A stretch of 64,000 bases of DNA, from assembly GCF_014201905.1 (NCBI RefSeq), contig NZ_JACHFM010000002.1:868001-932000 (forward strand). The letters are read 5' to 3'. The stretch comes from Amaricoccus macauensis. Lineage in GTDB: Bacteria; Pseudomonadota; Alphaproteobacteria; Rhodobacterales; Rhodobacteraceae. Both the position numbers and the translations under genes were made by a program. Positions 11,714-18,883 of the stretch are shown here, in pieces (within the stretch, counting starts at the first letter, position 1; every line of letters starts with the position of its first letter). A model generated the notes under the pieces. That model searched no databases and was not told the DNA's origin. It saw nothing but the letters and a program-made list of their open reading frames with translations.

Positions 11714-13120
11714 TCAGACGAACGCGAGATCGTCGCTCTTCTTCGACAGGCGGTAGCCGATCGCGAGAATTGCGAACCAGATCGGCGCGACGAAGAGCGC
11801 GATCCGGGTGCCGGAGTCGAAGCCGAGGAAGACGACGACCATGAGCAGGAAGGCGAGCACCGCCCAGTTGGTGAACGGCGCACCCGGCATGCGGAAGGAC
11901 ACCGGCTCGGCTTCACCACGGGCCACGGCCCGGCGATATCCGATGTGGGCGAGCATGATCATGCCCCAGGTCCAGATCGTGCCGACCAGCGCCACCGAGG
12001 TCACGTAGACGAAGACCTGCTCGGGGATGAAGTAGTTCAGCACCACGCCGAAGAGCATGACGATGACCGACGCGGTGATGCCGTTGGCGGGAACCTGGCT
12101 CTTGCTCACCTTGCCGAAGGCCTTCGGCGCCTGGCCGAAGTGGGCGAGGGTGTAGAGCATCCGCCCGGTGGAGAAGATGCCGGAGTTGCACGACGACGCC
12201 GCGGCGGTGATGACGACGAAGTTGATGACGAGCGCGGCAGCGGGCAGACCCATGCGGTCGAAGACCATGACGAACGGGCTTTCGCCGGCGGAGAACTCGG
12301 TCCACGGCACAAGCATCATCACGACGAGCAGCGCACCGATGTAGAAGACGAGGATACGCCAGACGACCGCGTTGGTGGCCTTGGGCAGCGACTTCGCCGG
12401 ATCCTCGACCTCGCCCGCCGTCACACCCAGAAGCTCAACGCCCTGGAAGGCGAACATCACCATCTGGAGCGCCAGCACCACGCCGAGCACGCCCGTCGGG
12501 AACATGCCGCCATGTGCCCAGAGGTTCGAGACCGACGCGACTTCCGCATGTTCGCCCGTGCCGAAGATCAGGAAGAGCGGGCCAGCGACGAGGAGGCCGA
12601 TGATCGCCACGATCTTGATGAGCGCGAACCAGAACTCCATCTCGCCGAAGACCTTCACGGCGATGAGGTTGGCCGCGTAGAGGACCGCGAGCGTCACCAG
12701 CGCCGGGATCCACTGTGGCACATCGGGGAACCAGTAGTTCGTATAGATACCGACGGCGGTGATTTCCGCCATGCCGGTCACGACCCACATGAACCAGTAG
12801 GACCAGCCAGTGGCGAAACCAGCGAACGGCGAGACGTACTCTTCGGCATAGGTCGCGAAACAGCCCGCGACCGGGCGATGGAGCATCAGCTCGCCGAGGG
12901 CGCGCATGATGAAAAAGATCACCACGCCGGCAATGGCGTAGGCGAAGATGAGCCCCGGCCCGGCGAAGGCAATCGCCCGGCCCGAGCCGAGGAAGAGCCC
13001 CACGCCAATCGCGCCGCCGAGCGCGATGAGCTGCACGTGGCGGTCTTTCAGTCCACGGTGGAAGTCCACCGCTTCCTGGCTTTGTTCAGCGTCAATAGCT
13101 GCCGCATCATGCGATCGCAT
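11714..13120 (-). CDS. Amino acid permease, APC family (CycA-like)
   Basis: Inner-membrane amino acid:proton symporter of 468 residues with 12 predicted helices. The family signature is near the start: RHVQLIALGGAIGVGLFLGSG, and later FAFQGVELLGVTAGEVEDP. This is the subgroup holding CycA (D-alanine, D-serine, glycine), AroP and GabP. It is the last gene of the leftward dadA-ridA-permease operon, so D-alanine and related D-amino acids or glycine are the likely cargo. The 75-bp gap to ridA holds a strong 11-bp hairpin that could set the relative level of the permease message. Confidence 0.87.
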   Translation of the reverse strand: MRSHDAAAIDAEQSQEAVDFHRGLKDRHVQLIALGGAIGVGLFLGSGRAIAFAGPGLIFAYAIAGVVIFFIMRALGELMLHRPVAGCFATYAEEYVSPFAGFATGWSYWFMWVVTGMAEITAVGIYTNYWFPDVPQWIPALVTLAVLYAANLIAVKVFGEMEFWFALIKIVAIIGLLVAGPLFLIFGTGEHAEVASVSNLWAHGGMFPTGVLGVVLALQMVMFAFQGVELLGVTAGEVEDPAKSLPKATNAVVWRILVFYIGALLVVMMLVPWTEFSAGESPFVMVFDRMGLPAAALVINFVVITAAASSCNSGIFSTGRMLYTLAHFGQAPKAFGKVSKSQVPANGITASVIVMLFGVVLNYFIPEQVFVYVTSVALVGTIWTWGMIMLAHIGYRRAVARGEAEPVSFRMPGAPFTNWAVLAFLLMVVVFLGFDSGTRIALFVAPIWFAILAIGYRLSKKSDDLAFV

Positions 13121-13195: not shown

Positions 13196-13567
13196 TCAGC
13201 CGAGGCTGACCACCAGCTCGATCTCGACGCTGGCGCCGCGCGGCAGCGCCGCGACCTGGACAGTGGAGCGCGCCGGCTTGTGGCTGCCGAAGCGCTTCTC
13301 GTAGATGGCGTTGAGCTTGGCGAAATCGCCAAGGTCGGTGACGAAGACCACGGCCTTCACCACCTTGTCGAAGCTCGCCCCGGCTTCCTTCAGCACGGCG
13401 GCCAGATTGTCGAAGACCTGCTCGGTCTGCGCCTCGATCCCTTCGGGCATCGAGCCGTCGAGCGTCAGCGGGATCTGCCCCGAGGTGAAAAGCAGCTCCC
13501 CCACCTGCACGGCGTGGCAGTACGGCCCGATGGCTGCCGGGGCGCCGGCGGTGTTGATCGTCTTCAT
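13196..13567 (-). CDS. ridA: RidA family imine/enamine deaminase
   Basis: A 123-residue trimeric RidA (YjgF/YER057c/UK114) protein that hydrolyses reactive enamines and imines released by PLP enzymes and amino acid oxidases. The catalytic arginine lies in KPARSTVQV near residue 100 and the substrate pocket residues in GPYCHAV and LFTSGQIPL are present. Its ATG overlaps the dadA stop by 4 bp, so it is translationally coupled to the oxidase whose imine product (from D-amino acids) it would clear. The protein may be a RidA subfamily paralogue rather than the housekeeping copy. Confidence 0.9.
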
Positions 13568-14862
13568 GCAGTCACTTCCTTCTTCGGAGAGGCAAGGGTC
13601 TTGGCGGCCTCGGTGTAGCGTTCGAGTCCCAGGGGCCGCGCGTCAATTGCGGGAACCTGGCCGGAGACGAGATCGGCGAGCACGCGGCCCGAACCACACG
13701 ACATGGTCCAGCCGAGCGTGCCGTGGCCGGTGTTGAGCCAGAGGTTGGAAAACTTCGCCCGGCCGATCACCGGCGGCCCGTCCGGCGTCATCGGCCGGTG
13801 GCCGGCCCAGAACGAGCCGGTCCTGGCATCGCCGCCCGTGCCATAGAAATCCGTCACCACGTGCTCGAGGGTCTCGCGCCGGTTGGTGTGGAGCGTCTGC
13901 GAGTAGCCGTCGAGTTCGGCCATGCCACCCACCCGGATCCGGTCGCCCAGCCGGGTGATCGCGACCTTGTGGTACTCGTCCATCACCGTCGACTCCGGCG
14001 CGCCGGCGGGATCGGTGATCGGCACGGTCAGCGAATAGCCCTTCACCGGATAGACCGGCAGCTTGATGCCGAGCGGCCGCAGCAGGAGCGGCGAATAGCT
14101 CCCCAACGCGACGACGTAGGCATCGCCCGTCACCAGCCCCTGATCCGTCGCGACGCCTGCGATCGCGTCGCCATTCGTCACGAGCCCGGTGATGTTGACC
14201 CCGTAGCGGAATTCCACCCCCTTCGCGACGGCGAGATCGCGCAGCGCGTTGGTGAACTTGAAGCAGTCGCCGGTCTCGTCCCCCGGCAGCCGCAGGCCGC
14301 CGACGAACTTCTCGCGCACCAGCCCAAGCGCCGGCTCGACCGCAACGCAGCCATCGACGTCGAGCACCTCATGCGGCACGCCGAGATCGGCGAGCACGTG
14401 CACGTCCTTGGCCGAACCATCGAGCAGCTTCTGGGTGCGGAACACCTGCAACGTGCCCTGCATCCGCTCGTCGTAGGAGATACCCGTCTCGGCGCGCAGC
14501 TCCTTCAGCATGTCGCGGCTGTACTCCGCGATCGGCACCATCCGGCTCTTGTTCACCTCATACGCGGCGGCGTTGCAGTTCTTCAGCATCGCGAGCGCGA
14601 ACCGCCAGAACGCCGGGTCAGTGCTCGGCCGGATGAACAGCGGGCTGTGCCGCATGAACATCCACTTCACCGCCTTCATCGGGATCCCCGGCGCCGCCCA
14701 CGGCGAGGCGTAACCCGGCGACACCTCGCCGGCATTCGCGAAGCTCGTCTCGAGTGCCGGCCCCTCCTGGCGGTCGAGCACCACAACCTCATGACCGGCG
14801 GCAGCAAGGTACCAGGCACTGGTGGTGCCGATAACGCCGCTGCCGAGGATGACGATCTTCAT
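13564..14862 (-). CDS. dadA: D-amino acid dehydrogenase DadA
   Basis: FAD-dependent oxidase of 432 residues that deaminates D-amino acids, mainly D-alanine, to keto acids and passes electrons to the quinone pool. The dinucleotide motif GSGVIG is residues 7-12; [23 protein letters not shown] is the DadA signature, and [15 protein letters not shown] near the C-terminus closes the FAD site. First gene of the leftward operon with ridA and a permease. A consensus sigma-54 promoter lies at 14965-14980, giving a leader of about 90 nt, with activator boxes farther upstream. Confidence 0.93.
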
Positions 14863-14964
14863 GCAATGAGCCTTTCGATCTCGATGCCGGCCATGATCGG
14901 CCGGAGTGGCGGTGTTTCCCGGAGGCCCCGAATTGGACTGGTCCGGCAGTTCTACACTACGTTA

Positions 14965-14980
14965 AGCAATAAACGTGCCA
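14965..14980 (-). promoter_or_regulatory. Sigma-54 promoter of the dadA operon
   Basis: Read on the minus strand, bases 14980 to 14965 are TGGCACG-TTTA-TTGCT, an exact match to the -24/-12 consensus TGGCACG-N4-TTGC(A/T). The expected transcription start is near 14954, about 92 nt before the dadA ATG at 14862. Confidence 0.88.
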
Positions 14981-14995
14981 ATCAGAGTGCGCCCT

Positions 14996-15008
14996 CAAGC
15001 CATTGATT
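14996..15008 (-). promoter_or_regulatory. IHF consensus site
   Basis: The minus strand reads AATCAATGGCTTG, an exact fit to WATCAANNNNTTR. It lies between the sigma-54 promoter and the upstream activator boxes, where IHF bends DNA in classic sigma-54 systems. Confidence 0.65.
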
Positions 15009-15091
15009 TTGCACATGGCAAGGATGCATCCGCTGCAAGGCTCCTGTAAAGAATTCTTGACGCTGAATCTGCGTGCACGAAAAGGACGAGC

Positions 15092-15120
15092 TTGACCAAT
15101 GGGTTGCTCGTCTGTAATGT
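15092..15120 (+). promoter_or_regulatory. Sigma-70 promoter of the TyrR-like gene
   Basis: TTGACC at 15092-15097 and TAATGT at 15115-15120 are spaced by 17 bp. The -10 element overlaps the first TyrR-type box, so the regulator probably represses its own gene. Confidence 0.65.
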
Positions 15121-15149
15121 TTTCATTACACTGTATTGGAAGCGTTACA
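15113..15149. promoter_or_regulatory. Two tandem TyrR-type boxes
   Basis: Box 1 (15113-15130) is TGTAAT-N6-ATTACA, a perfect palindrome; box 2 (15132-15149) is TGTATT-N6-GTTACA. Both keep the TGTA-N10-TACA core of E. coli TyrR boxes. Their centres are 19 bp apart and about 165-185 bp upstream of the predicted dadA start, a normal enhancer distance. A weaker match, TGTAAA-N6-TTGACG, is at 15045-15062. Confidence 0.75.
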
Positions 15150-15152
15150 CCC

Positions 15153-16670
15153 ATGCGCATCGAGATCGCTTTCAGTGACCGCGTCGGCATCGCCTCTGAA
15201 ATTCTGACGGTGCTCGCCCACCACAGTCTCGACGCGGTCGAGGTCGAGGTCAATCCGCCGCACATCTATATCGATTCACCCGACCTCACCGATCTCGGGC
15301 CCCTGCTCCCGGAGCTCGAACAGGTGCAGGGCGTGCAGGCCATCCGGCCCGTCGACCTGCTGCCGGGCGCGCGCCGCAGGCTCTATCTCGACGCGCTGCT
15401 CGATGCCTTCGCCGACCCGGTGCTCGCGATCGACGCCAAGGGGCGAATGCTCGTCGCCAATGCCGCCGCCTCGGCTCTCGCGCCGGGTGCCGACCTCGCG
15501 ACCATCCTCGACGACCCCGCCGTCGCCCGCGATCTGCTCGACAGCGGCTTTCGCGCCCCGCCGCGCGAGGCCATCGTGCGCGGCGAGCCGTATCTCATCG
15601 AGGCCCGCCCGCTCGGTGACGGTGCCGGCGGCATGGTCCACCTGCACGCGCCGCAACGCCTCGGCGAGCGGATGAACGCGCTGCAACACCTGGGCGATGT
15701 CGGCTTTGACGGCCTGCTCGGCGCGGCACCGCCCATGCGGGCGCTGAAGCAGCGCGCCGCGCGCGTTGCCTCCGTCGACGGACCATTGCTCGTCCTCGGC
15801 GAGACCGGCACCGGCAAGGAACTGCTCGCCCACGCCTGCCACCGGGCAAGCCCGCGCGCCGAGAAGCCGTTCCTCGCGCTGAACTGCGCCGCGCTGCCCG
15901 AAAGCCTCGCCGAGAGTGAGCTCTTCGGCTACGCCGGCGGCGCGTTCTCCGGGGCCCGGCGCGACGGCAAGCCGGGGCTGCTGGAGCTCGCCGATCGCGG
16001 CACGGTGTTTCTCGACGAAATCGGCGAGATGTCGCTCTATCTCCAGGCCAAGCTCCTGCGGTTCCTGAACGACGGCAGCTTTCGCCGCGTCGGCTCCGAA
16101 CGCGAAACCCGCGTCGACGTGCGGATCATCTCGGCCACGCACCGCGACCTGCCGGCGATGATCGCCAAGGGTGATTTTCGCGAAGACCTCTACTATCGCC
16201 TGAACGTGCTGACGCTGGAAATCCCGCCACTGCGCGAGCGGGGCGACGACGTGATCCTGCTCGCGCGGCACTTCTGCACCCGCGCCGCGGCCCAGACCGG
16301 CAGCCCGGCCTGCCGCCTCTCGGCCTCCGCCGAGATCGCCCTCGCCGCGAACCCGTGGCCCGGCAACGTCCGGCAACTGGAGAACGCGATCTTTCGCGCG
16401 GTGACCCTCGCGGACCACACGACGCTCGCGTCCTCCGATCTCGAACTCGCCGGGGCGAGCACGACGACCGCCCCGGCCGACACCACGGCCGCCAGCCCGC
16501 CGGAAGGCACAAGCTGGGCCGAGGCCGTCGCGATCTTCGAGCGCGGCTTCCTCGAACGGCTCTATCCGCAATTCCCGTCGAGCCGGAAGCTCGCGGCCCG
16601 GCTCGGCACCTCACACACCACGATCGCGAACAAACTCAGGGAACACGGCATCCCGGGCGGACGCCCCTAA
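15153..16670 (+). CDS. TyrR-like sigma-54-type activator with ACT domain
   Basis: A 505-residue regulator. An N-terminal ACT domain (about 1-75, MRIEIAFSDRVGIASEIL) binds amino acids; a PAS-like region follows (about 75-180); then an AAA+ domain with Walker A GETGTGKE at 216-223, the sigma-54 contact loop GAFSGA at 263-268 (consensus GAFTGA) and a Walker B VFLDEIGEM. The C-terminal TyrR-type helix-turn-helix is about 468-502 (SRKLAARLGTSHTTIANKL). The ATG at 15153 lies directly after two TyrR boxes; an in-frame ATG at 15099 would lie inside the promoter. Divergent from the dadA operon, which it very likely activates in response to an amino acid. TyrR itself works with sigma-70, whereas this homologue keeps a near-intact sigma-54 loop. 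Confidence 0.9.
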   Translation: MRIEIAFSDRVGIASEILTVLAHHSLDAVEVEVNPPHIYIDSPDLTDLGPLLPELEQVQGVQAIRPVDLLPGARRRLYLDALLDAFADPVLAIDAKGRMLVANAAASALAPGADLATILDDPAVARDLLDSGFRAPPREAIVRGEPYLIEARPLGDGAGGMVHLHAPQRLGERMNALQHLGDVGFDGLLGAAPPMRALKQRAARVASVDGPLLVLGETGTGKELLAHACHRASPRAEKPFLALNCAALPESLAESELFGYAGGAFSGARRDGKPGLLELADRGTVFLDEIGEMSLYLQAKLLRFLNDGSFRRVGSERETRVDVRIISATHRDLPAMIAKGDFREDLYYRLNVLTLEIPPLRERGDDVILLARHFCTRAAAQTGSPACRLSASAEIALAANPWPGNVRQLENAIFRAVTLADHTTLASSDLELAGASTTTAPADTTAASPPEGTSWAEAVAIFERGFLERLYPQFPSSRKLAARLGTSHTTIANKLREHGIPGGRP

Positions 16671-17491
16671 GCCGCGCCCTCGCCGAGCGGCGTATAGACG
16701 AACCGGCCGCCCGCATCGCGCACCACGCCGATGCCGGGGAATTCGAGATGCGCCCCCGCCACGTGGCAGCCAGGCCGGCTGGCCCGGCGCAGCATCACGA
16801 GCCGGATCGCCCGCGCCTCCGCCTGATCGGCGTCGAGCTCCCAGCTCAGGTCCGGCCGTGCGAACTGGACCGCGGGCACGTGGACGATGTCACCCCAGAC
16901 GAGGAGCGTCTCGCCGGCACTTTCCACCTCGAAGGCGCTGTGCCCCACCTCATGCCCCCGCGCCGCGACGGCCCTCACGCCCGGTCCGATGTCCGCTCCA
17001 TCAGCGAACGGCTCCCGGCGGGCGCGAAACCGCGCCAGTCGCTCGCAAGCATCGAAGCGCGCGAGTTCCGCGTCCGGCACCAGCAGCCGTTCGAGGCGCG
17101 GGAAAGCATCGGCCCCGCCCGGCGCCACCAGCCCGTGGACGTGATCCTCGTGGGTGTGGGTGAGCGCAACGGTCGCGATTGCCTCCCGCACCACCCCGGC
17201 TGCATCGAGCGAGGCGAGAAGCCCGCCCATCGTCGGCTCCCAGGCGTCCGACGCACCGGTGTCGATCAGGATGTGCCGACCCTGATTGACGATGAGGAAC
17301 GCATTGACCGAAAGCCGCAAACGGCCATTCACGAGGCAGACCTCTTCCGGCAGATCAGGCCCGAAGGGCTGACCATCCGGCTTGCGCAGGCGTCCGGCCG
17401 GCAAATCCACGTAGCCGTCGTGAAGCGCGATCACCGTCACGTCACCCAGCGCATACCGCGCGAAGCCGGCACCCGAAGCGAGCTGCCGCAT
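16667..17491 (-). CDS. MBL-fold metallo-hydrolase
   Basis: A 274-residue protein of the metallo-beta-lactamase fold. The zinc-binding HxHxDH motif is H112-T-H114-E-D116-H117 (THTHEDHVHG), preceded by LIDTGASD near 75-82 and followed by later ligand histidines in RGHEVGHSAF. The start at 17491 is chosen because a perfect AGGAGG lies seven bases upstream; longer in-frame starts lack it. Its stop overlaps the stop of the TyrR-like gene by 4 bp on the opposite strand. Members include lactonases and esterases; the substrate is unknown. Confidence 0.85.
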   Translation of the reverse strand: MRQLASGAGFARYALGDVTVIALHDGYVDLPAGRLRKPDGQPFGPDLPEEVCLVNGRLRLSVNAFLIVNQGRHILIDTGASDAWEPTMGGLLASLDAAGVVREAIATVALTHTHEDHVHGLVAPGGADAFPRLERLLVPDAELARFDACERLARFRARREPFADGADIGPGVRAVAARGHEVGHSAFEVESAGETLLVWGDIVHVPAVQFARPDLSWELDADQAEARAIRLVMLRRASRPGCHVAGAHLEFPGIGVVRDAGGRFVYTPLGEGAA

Positions 17492-17600
17492 GTCGCCACC
17501 TCCTGAATTCCCCGCCGCAATTCCCCGCCGCCGGCCATTCACGTGTAGGGCGCTGCGGCCCGGCGTCGGGGTTCAGGATACCACGGCGGAGAGGCCCGCG

Positions 17601-18839
17601 TCAGGCGGCCTGCTGCACCGGCACCACCGGGGCGCCGAGATCCGACGCCACGCTGGTCGCCACGATCCGCGCCGTCGCCGCCGACAGCGTCCAGCCAAGG
17701 TGCCCGTGGCCGGTGTTGTAGAAGACACCCTGCGCCCGCCCGCGACCGACCCGCGGCAGCATCGAGGGCGTCATCGGCCGCAGACCGGCCCACGGCACCA
17801 CCTGCTCCGTCGAGACGCCGGGGAAGTGCTTCTGGCACCACTCGACCAGCGGCTGGATCCGGTCTGCCCGGATGTCCTTGTTCGCGCCGTTGAATTCGGC
17901 CGTCCCGGCGATGCGGAAGCGGTCGGCACCAAACCGGCTCGCCACGATCTTCGCCCGGTCGTCGAGCAGGCTGACCCACGGCGCCGCCGACTGGCTCGCT
18001 TGGTCAGCGAGGTTGACGGTGATCGAGTAGCCCTTCACCGGATAGATGTTCACCCGGTCGCCCAGCCCCTGCGCGATTGCCCGGCTGCGCGTGCCGGCGC
18101 AAACCACCACGCCATCGAAGACCTCGCTCGACAGCGGCGTCACGATGCGCACGCCACCCTCGACCGTCGCGACGTCGCCGACTTCCGCGCCAAAGCGCAT
18201 GTCAGCGCCGCGCCGGGCGCAGGCCGCGGCAAGGCCGACCGTGAACTTGTGGATGTCGCCGGAGCTGTCGCTCTCGGTCAGGAAGCCACCGACGAAGTCG
18301 CCGTGGAGCGCGGGCTCCACCTCATGGATCTCGCCCGGGCTCAGTTCCCGCCGCTCAAGCCCGCCCTGCGCCAGCAGGCCGTTCACCATGCGGGCGTGCT
18401 TCAGGTCCTTGGCGCTGGAGTAGAAGTGCAGGATCCCCCGCCGCTCCAGATCGAAGTCGATGCCCTCGCGCTCCGCCATCTCGAACAGCACCGTGCGCGC
18501 CGCGATCGCGAGCCGCACGGTCTCGATGGTGTTGGCCTTGTAGGTCGGGATCTTCGACAGGAACTCGGCCATCCACGCGAACTTGTGGAACGTCGGCCGC
18601 GGATTGACGAGCAGCGGCGCGTCGGCATGAAGCATCCACTTCAGCCCCTTCAGCACCGTGCCCCACTGGGTCCAGGTCTCGGCGTTCGACGCGGACAGCT
18701 GGCCGCCATTGGCGAAGCTCGTCTCCATGGCGGCATAGCGATGGCGATCGAACACCGTCACCTCGAAGCCGCGGTCCAGCAGCTCATAGGCGGTCGTCAG
18801 GCCGGTTACACCGGCGCCGATCACGGCAATACGGGTCAT
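17601..18839 (-). CDS. Second DadA-like FAD oxidoreductase, riboswitch-controlled
   Basis: A DAO-fold flavoprotein of 412 residues with the FAD motif GAGVTG at 8-13, the DadA-type METSFANGGQLSASNAETW and the C-terminal TGHGHLGWTLSAA. It is clearly related to the DadA encoded 2.7 kb away, but differs through its middle. The start ATG at 18839 lies about 45 bp after a tandem glycine riboswitch on the same strand, so its expression should follow glycine. This suggests a glycine-linked amine or D-amino acid as substrate (glycine, sarcosine or D-amino acids are all possible for the DAO family). Confidence 0.88.
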   Translation of the reverse strand: MTRIAVIGAGVTGLTTAYELLDRGFEVTVFDRHRYAAMETSFANGGQLSASNAETWTQWGTVLKGLKWMLHADAPLLVNPRPTFHKFAWMAEFLSKIPTYKANTIETVRLAIAARTVLFEMAEREGIDFDLERRGILHFYSSAKDLKHARMVNGLLAQGGLERRELSPGEIHEVEPALHGDFVGGFLTESDSSGDIHKFTVGLAAACARRGADMRFGAEVGDVATVEGGVRIVTPLSSEVFDGVVVCAGTRSRAIAQGLGDRVNIYPVKGYSITVNLADQASQSAAPWVSLLDDRAKIVASRFGADRFRIAGTAEFNGANKDIRADRIQPLVEWCQKHFPGVSTEQVVPWAGLRPMTPSMLPRVGRGRAQGVFYNTGHGHLGWTLSAATARIVATSVASDLGAPVVPVQQAA

Positions 18840-18883
18840 GTCACACTCCAAGGCTCGCGCGGCGTTTGGCTTGGCCGCAGCGC

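Follow-up and report, generated by a model that had tools for sequence, protein, structure and literature searches.

The 290-bp region between dadA and a divergent regulator gene in Amaricoccus macauensis very probably serves as a module that places D-alanine catabolism under sigma-54 control through the TyrR-type protein that the regulator gene encodes. It lies within the window, the whole 64,000-nucleotide stretch of DNA that was analysed, and is taken here as positions 14863–15152, since the regulator ATG is at 15153. The earlier note, which had delimited the region as 14862–15153, has the -24/-12, the IHF and the two box elements in the right places, and its regulator start (15154) is one base off. 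In the proposed mechanism, the TyrR-type protein would occupy three boxes upstream of dadA and, on sensing a ligand that is most likely D- or L-alanine, would form an AAA+ oligomer. DNA looping, aided by IHF, would let this oligomer meet the sigma-54 RNA polymerase parked at the -24/-12 element, and ATP use by the TyrR-type protein would then open the promoter of a putative dadA-ridA-permease operon. When bound to boxes 1 and 2, the regulator may also limit its own synthesis.

The elements of the region can be read directly in the DNA (Table 1), and the predicted -24/-12 element, the box pair and the third box exceed chance. The exact -24/-12 site facing dadA, already pointed out in the earlier note, is present, and a pattern scan with TGGCACGNNNNTTGCW finds this one site in the whole window. 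The 4.83-Mb genome holds three such sites, as compared with none for the pattern read backwards, and among 20,000 dinucleotide-shuffled versions of the 290-bp region the element appears in two. The two TGTA-N10-TACA palindromes described earlier are also found, and at least two such boxes are seen in 0 of 20,000 shuffles of the same region; the strict box has four sites in the genome, two of them in this control region, and the reversed control pattern has 30. This part of the earlier inventory was right but overlooked a third box, whose matrix score is matched by 0 of 2,000 shuffles and which is present at the corresponding place in most relatives. For the box matrix, 86 boxes of relatives were used, with the window left out; they come from 33 of the analysed loci, and the matrix is circular for those, not for the window or for other groups. 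The other two strict genome sites were considered as further regulon targets and dropped: one (L197) falls within a repeat-rich coding frame and L198, the second, has a box-matrix score of 2.9.

Table 1. Features of the dadA control region and its flanking genes (positions in the window)
Feature	Position	Strand	Basis
Amino acid permease	11714–13120	minus	PF00324; NF008272 509.9 bits, below cut-off 732
ridA-type deaminase gene	13196–13567	minus	TIGR00004 157.6 bits, cut-off 106.25
dadA, D-amino acid dehydrogenase	13564–14862	minus	NF001933 678.8 bits, cut-off 383
Predicted sigma-54 promoter element -24/-12, TGGCACG-TTTA-TTGCT (TGGCACG-N4-TTGCT), toward dadA	14965–14980	minus	exact consensus
IHF-like site AATCAATGGCTTG, in the promoter–third box interval	14996–15008	minus	exact consensus
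Third TyrR-type box, TGTAAAGAATTCTTGACG	15045–15062	plus	matrix score 19.9
Weak candidate sigma-70 promoter of regulator, TTGACC-N17-TAATGT	15092–15120	plus	read from sequence; no match in the sigma-70 scan
Weaker IHF-like site (the second), GACCAATGGGTTG, immediately ahead of box 2	15094–15106	plus	7/9 consensus positions
TyrR-type box 2, TGTAATGTTTTCATTACA	15113–15130	plus	TGTA-N10-TACA
TyrR-type box 1, TGTATTGGAAGCGTTACA	15132–15149	plus	TGTA-N10-TACA; 19 bp from box 2
TyrR-type enhancer-binding protein, 505 aa	15153–16670	plus	PF00158 3e-66, HTH_50

The domains and the contact loop of the regulator are likewise seen in its sequence. It has an AAA+ sigma-54 interaction domain (PF00158, 222.7 bits, cut-off 20.2) and a TyrR-type helix-turn-helix (HTH_TypR, TIGR04381, 74.4 bits, cut-off 30), and its residues 1–109 match the structure of the N-terminal domain of E. 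coli TyrR (2jhe, 2.9e-13); Pfam gives no ACT or PAS match. When compared with the curated TyrR equivalog NF008085 the score is 449.5 bits, below the cut-off of 576, and by its matches the protein is classed as a TyrR relative, not as TyrR in the strict sense. The sigma-54 contact loop, judged intact from its residues, is GAFSGA, one residue off GAFTGA, and this deviation is counted against the sigma-54 model; the same loop is common to the window and 10 other loci of the set (for example, L003 and L126). The genome encodes one rpoN (a single PF04552 match, 193.6 bits) as well as ihfA and ihfB, both above the model cut-offs.

On the other side of the control region, the ridA frame overlaps the end of dadA by 4 bp, and the nearest model of the permease, below its cut-off, is a D-serine/D-alanine/glycine transporter (NF008272). 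There are no glycine cleavage genes beside the regulator; its neighbours are dadA, ridA and the permease, and these would point to alanine rather than aromatic amino acids as the signal. A second D-amino acid dehydrogenase gene is found near the dadA locus (17604–18842, minus strand, PRK12409, 687.8 bits, cut-off 494), and a metallo-beta-lactamase-fold protein is encoded next to the end of the regulator gene (16670–17542, minus strand), its nearest model being the AidB lactonase (151 bits, below the cut-off of 360).

It is conceivable, but very unlikely, that the regulator works like E. coli TyrR, which acts via sigma-70 according to the accessible text of PMC6375630, or like the pseudomonad PhhR, responding to aromatic amino acids, with the -24/-12 element being incidental or belonging to another enhancer-binding protein. 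The ACT-PAS-AAA+-HTH family is the same, the boxes are of a similar type and the genome has 11 PF00158 matches, of which 8 are strong; however, the loop of E. coli TyrR and PhhR is altered, whereas it is intact here, the neighbours are alanine genes, and a sigma-70 promoter scan of 14863–15200 finds no match. The relatives also argue against this alternative. The comparison covers 106 full-length TyrR-type regulators including that of the window, sampled among the matches listed (L002, which repeats the window, was dropped), and a loop is called intact when it reads GAFTGA, GSFTGA, GAFSGA or GAFTSA and altered when it reads anything else. The divergent layout of promoter and boxes, seen directly in the upstream sequences, occurs in 61 of 83 intact-loop loci and in 0 of 23 altered-loop loci, and shuffling the upstream regions yields it in 0 of 2,120 cases. 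For 16 of the altered-loop loci, phhA is matched within the fetched sequence. When tandem arrangements are counted as well, the layout is present in 75 of 83 intact-loop and 1 of 23 altered-loop loci, all these locus counts being non-independent observations. The exception to the loop–layout rule, L179, is counted against the model: this Pseudomonas-type locus, which the tree places with the Pseudomonas glycine regulators, has lost the sigma-54 loop but retains, downstream, three boxes and a promoter-like element. Neither layout is seen in eight intact-loop loci (L035, L039, L042, L170, L177 and three Bacillota).

Divergent dadA with a -24/-12 element toward it is found in 34 of the 106 loci, the window included, among the matches listed. 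The other 33 comprise 31 from Azospirillum (29 assigned at genus level), one from an Azoarcus plasmid and one from a Burkholderiales assembly. The Azospirillum loci are near copies, two of them (L032 and L154) having identical intergenic sequences, so that the dadA relatives are not independent, and this is also counted against the model, as is the long dadA leader of the window, with 104 bp from the -12 element to the ATG when compared with 42–63 bp in the 33 relatives. The same layout also faces methionine gamma-lyase (22 loci), alanine racemase (2), racemase plus dadA (1, L003), an alanine-type carrier (1) and, in one locus, an unassigned gene; the target names were checked on 8 example proteins. 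In L003, from a genome of the same genus, the divergent operon opens with alanine racemase, followed by dadA. The methionine gamma-lyase arrangement is found in the upstream regions L120–L125, L156–L169, L048 and L190, and many of the TyrR-type genes divergent to it (17 loci) encode the loop GAFTSA. In a tree of 78 of the 106 proteins, the regulator of the window is sister to that of L003 (support 100/99) and belongs to a 15-row set together with the Azospirillum dadA/alr regulators (99/83). Full-length relatives are found in 2 of 37 genomes of the family of the window, and the module is therefore called patchy there, which may reflect transfer or loss.

The box pair has the 19-bp spacing in 54 of the 61 divergent loci, and the distance from the promoter to the nearest (third) box is 52–56 bp in 48 and 62–66 bp in 10 (58 of 61 together), the remaining loci having 31, 44 and 86 bp, one each. 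In the window, the spacings along promoter, third box, box 2 and box 1 are 65, 68 and 19 bp. The two main spacing classes, as measured from these predicted elements, are about one helical turn apart, which fits face-of-helix constraints. The distance from the third box to the pair is less regular (64 to 103 bp, or 42 to 144 bp where two boxes are seen), and the phasing interpretation is not extended to this interval. Taken together, the intact loop, the rpoN gene, the -24/-12 element, the three boxes and the shared layout support the proposal of the earlier note that the TyrR-type regulator would act as a sigma-54 activator of dadA; its claims of a distinct variant and of a regulator -10 box are not supported, as discussed below.

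The IHF consensus WATCAANNNNTTR noted earlier near the promoter is indeed present, 15 bp from the -24 element. There is one exact match in the window and 28 in the genome, as compared with 8 for the reversed pattern. Since 223 of 20,000 dinucleotide-shuffled versions of this 290-bp stretch (1.1%) contain an exact match, the site taken alone is only mildly unlikely by chance. Conservation of the site as an exact consensus was dropped, as only 2 of the 34 dadA-divergent regions have an exact match, the window and L150, where it is elsewhere in the region; a looser, position-based test was therefore used, in which the pattern WATCAR-N4-TTR was scored over 9 positions in a thinned locus set. A score of 7/9 or more is reached near the promoter, at offset 17–20, by 13 of 30 thinned loci (shuffles: mean 1.0, maximum 5) and before box 2 by 17 of 26 (shuffles: mean 1.1, maximum 5); the second IHF-like site of the window has this conserved place, 6 bp ahead of box 2, and overlaps the possible -35 of the regulator. 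The window scores only 5/9 at offset 17–20, because its exact site is at offset 15 on the opposite strand; the sister locus L003 has a CAA-N4-TTG core at the same offset as the window, with a best score of 7/9.

It is possible, though we do not favour it, that the sigma-54 assignment is right and the IHF-like sites are unused, being chance matches in an A+T-richer spacer, with another bending protein or none. The shuffle frequency of the exact match is in agreement with this, as is the score of at most 7–8 of 9 positions in the majority of relatives, and all 12 Azospirillaceae loci of the thinned set score below 7/9 near the promoter, which is counted against the model. However, the IHF-like cores cluster at few offsets, since near the promoter all 14 are at 15, 21 or 22 and ahead of box 2 the distance is 4–7 bp for 13 of 14, and 0 of 1,000 permuted consensuses equal the real one at either place when offset and strand are left free, which was done because the offsets had already been picked from the same regions. 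In the regions compared, the position of the predicted IHF-like sites is fixed in many, but not all, lineages, and from this positional conservation the use of IHF at the predicted sites of the dadA control region is likely.

Boxes 1 and 2 sit 21–40 bp ahead of the regulator start codon, and from this position autoregulation is plausible. The earlier note had gone further, with a box overlapping the -10 of the regulator and built-in autorepression. The position of the boxes fits autorepression, but the candidate -10 has three of the six TATAAT bases, and scanning for sigma-70 promoters gives no match; because the proposed -10 is poor, autorepression is weakly supported. We consider it highly improbable that repression of the regulator gene is the main role of the boxes and that dadA is driven from another promoter. 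The proximity of boxes 1 and 2 to the start codon (at most 40 bp) would agree with such a role, but in the tandem loci, that is L037 (dadA downstream), L119 and L155 (alr match in the locus) and 11 of 16 Pseudomonas-type loci (gcvP and glyA checked in two), the boxes and the promoter are shifted into the space between the regulator and the downstream gene. There the boxes go with the target promoter, since they stand with a sigma-54 site and away from the regulator promoter.

Sigma-54 control of dadA by the TyrR-type protein is well supported but not new, and the arrangement is very like that of Azospirillum. The earlier note had regarded it as a distinct variant; two published systems argue otherwise. 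For A. brasilense Sp7, the accessible text of PMC6375630 (PLoS One 2019) describes divergent tyrR-dadA, three TyrR boxes, a predicted -24/-12 promoter and a GAFTGA-type loop, and reports that in a tyrR mutant dadA mRNA is absent and growth with D-alanine as sole carbon source is lost. When compared with this published description, the window has the same divergent dadA, -24/-12 element and three boxes, but its loop is GAFSGA, ridA and permease genes follow dadA, and it has IHF-like sites, whereas the main text of PMC6375630 has no occurrence of IHF. GcsR of Pseudomonas aeruginosa, in the accessible text of PMC4894688 (mSphere 2016), is a TyrR-like protein of the sigma-54 type that activates glycine catabolism; it resembles the regulator of the window in being a TyrR-like activator with a predicted RpoN site, three boxes and a non-aromatic amino acid. 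It differs in its glycine cleavage target, which is in tandem downstream of the regulator, and in its 18-bp boxes (TGTAACG-N4-CGTTCCG), whose arms are unlike those of the window. The literature search found nothing nearer than these two papers among the matches listed, subscription papers being mostly outside its scope.

With the window, the range of the Azospirillum TyrR-dadA system grows by another alphaproteobacterial family, in a clean and testable layout, and predicted IHF sites are added, which are absent from the accessible text of PMC6375630 and PMC4894688. The comparison also shows that catabolic genes for alanine, methionine and glycine all can have this layout upstream and that it tracks the intact loop, so that the protein loop would predict the use of sigma-54 by TyrR relatives. 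A specific prediction concerns the methionine gamma-lyase branch; no paper on this enzyme together with TyrR is found among the literature matches listed. Residues 7–16 of the N-terminal domain differ among the alanine, methionine, glycine and aromatic groups, which is no more than suggestive of a role in effector specificity. We lean, by a little, towards a view in which intact-loop TyrR-type proteins keep a stereotyped enhancer module while the target changes, and in which loss of the loop accompanies loss of the sigma-54 layout. Such a module would consist of the 19-bp box pair with a third box, of IHF-like bend sites (one or two) and of a -24/-12 element at one of two helical registers; its targets would be dadA and alr, the gene of an alanine carrier, that of methionine gamma-lyase and the glycine cleavage genes. 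If this is true, these proteins would be switches for alanine, methionine and glycine that form one class, with a single DNA architecture around which their ligand range, their targets and their sigma factor have evolved.
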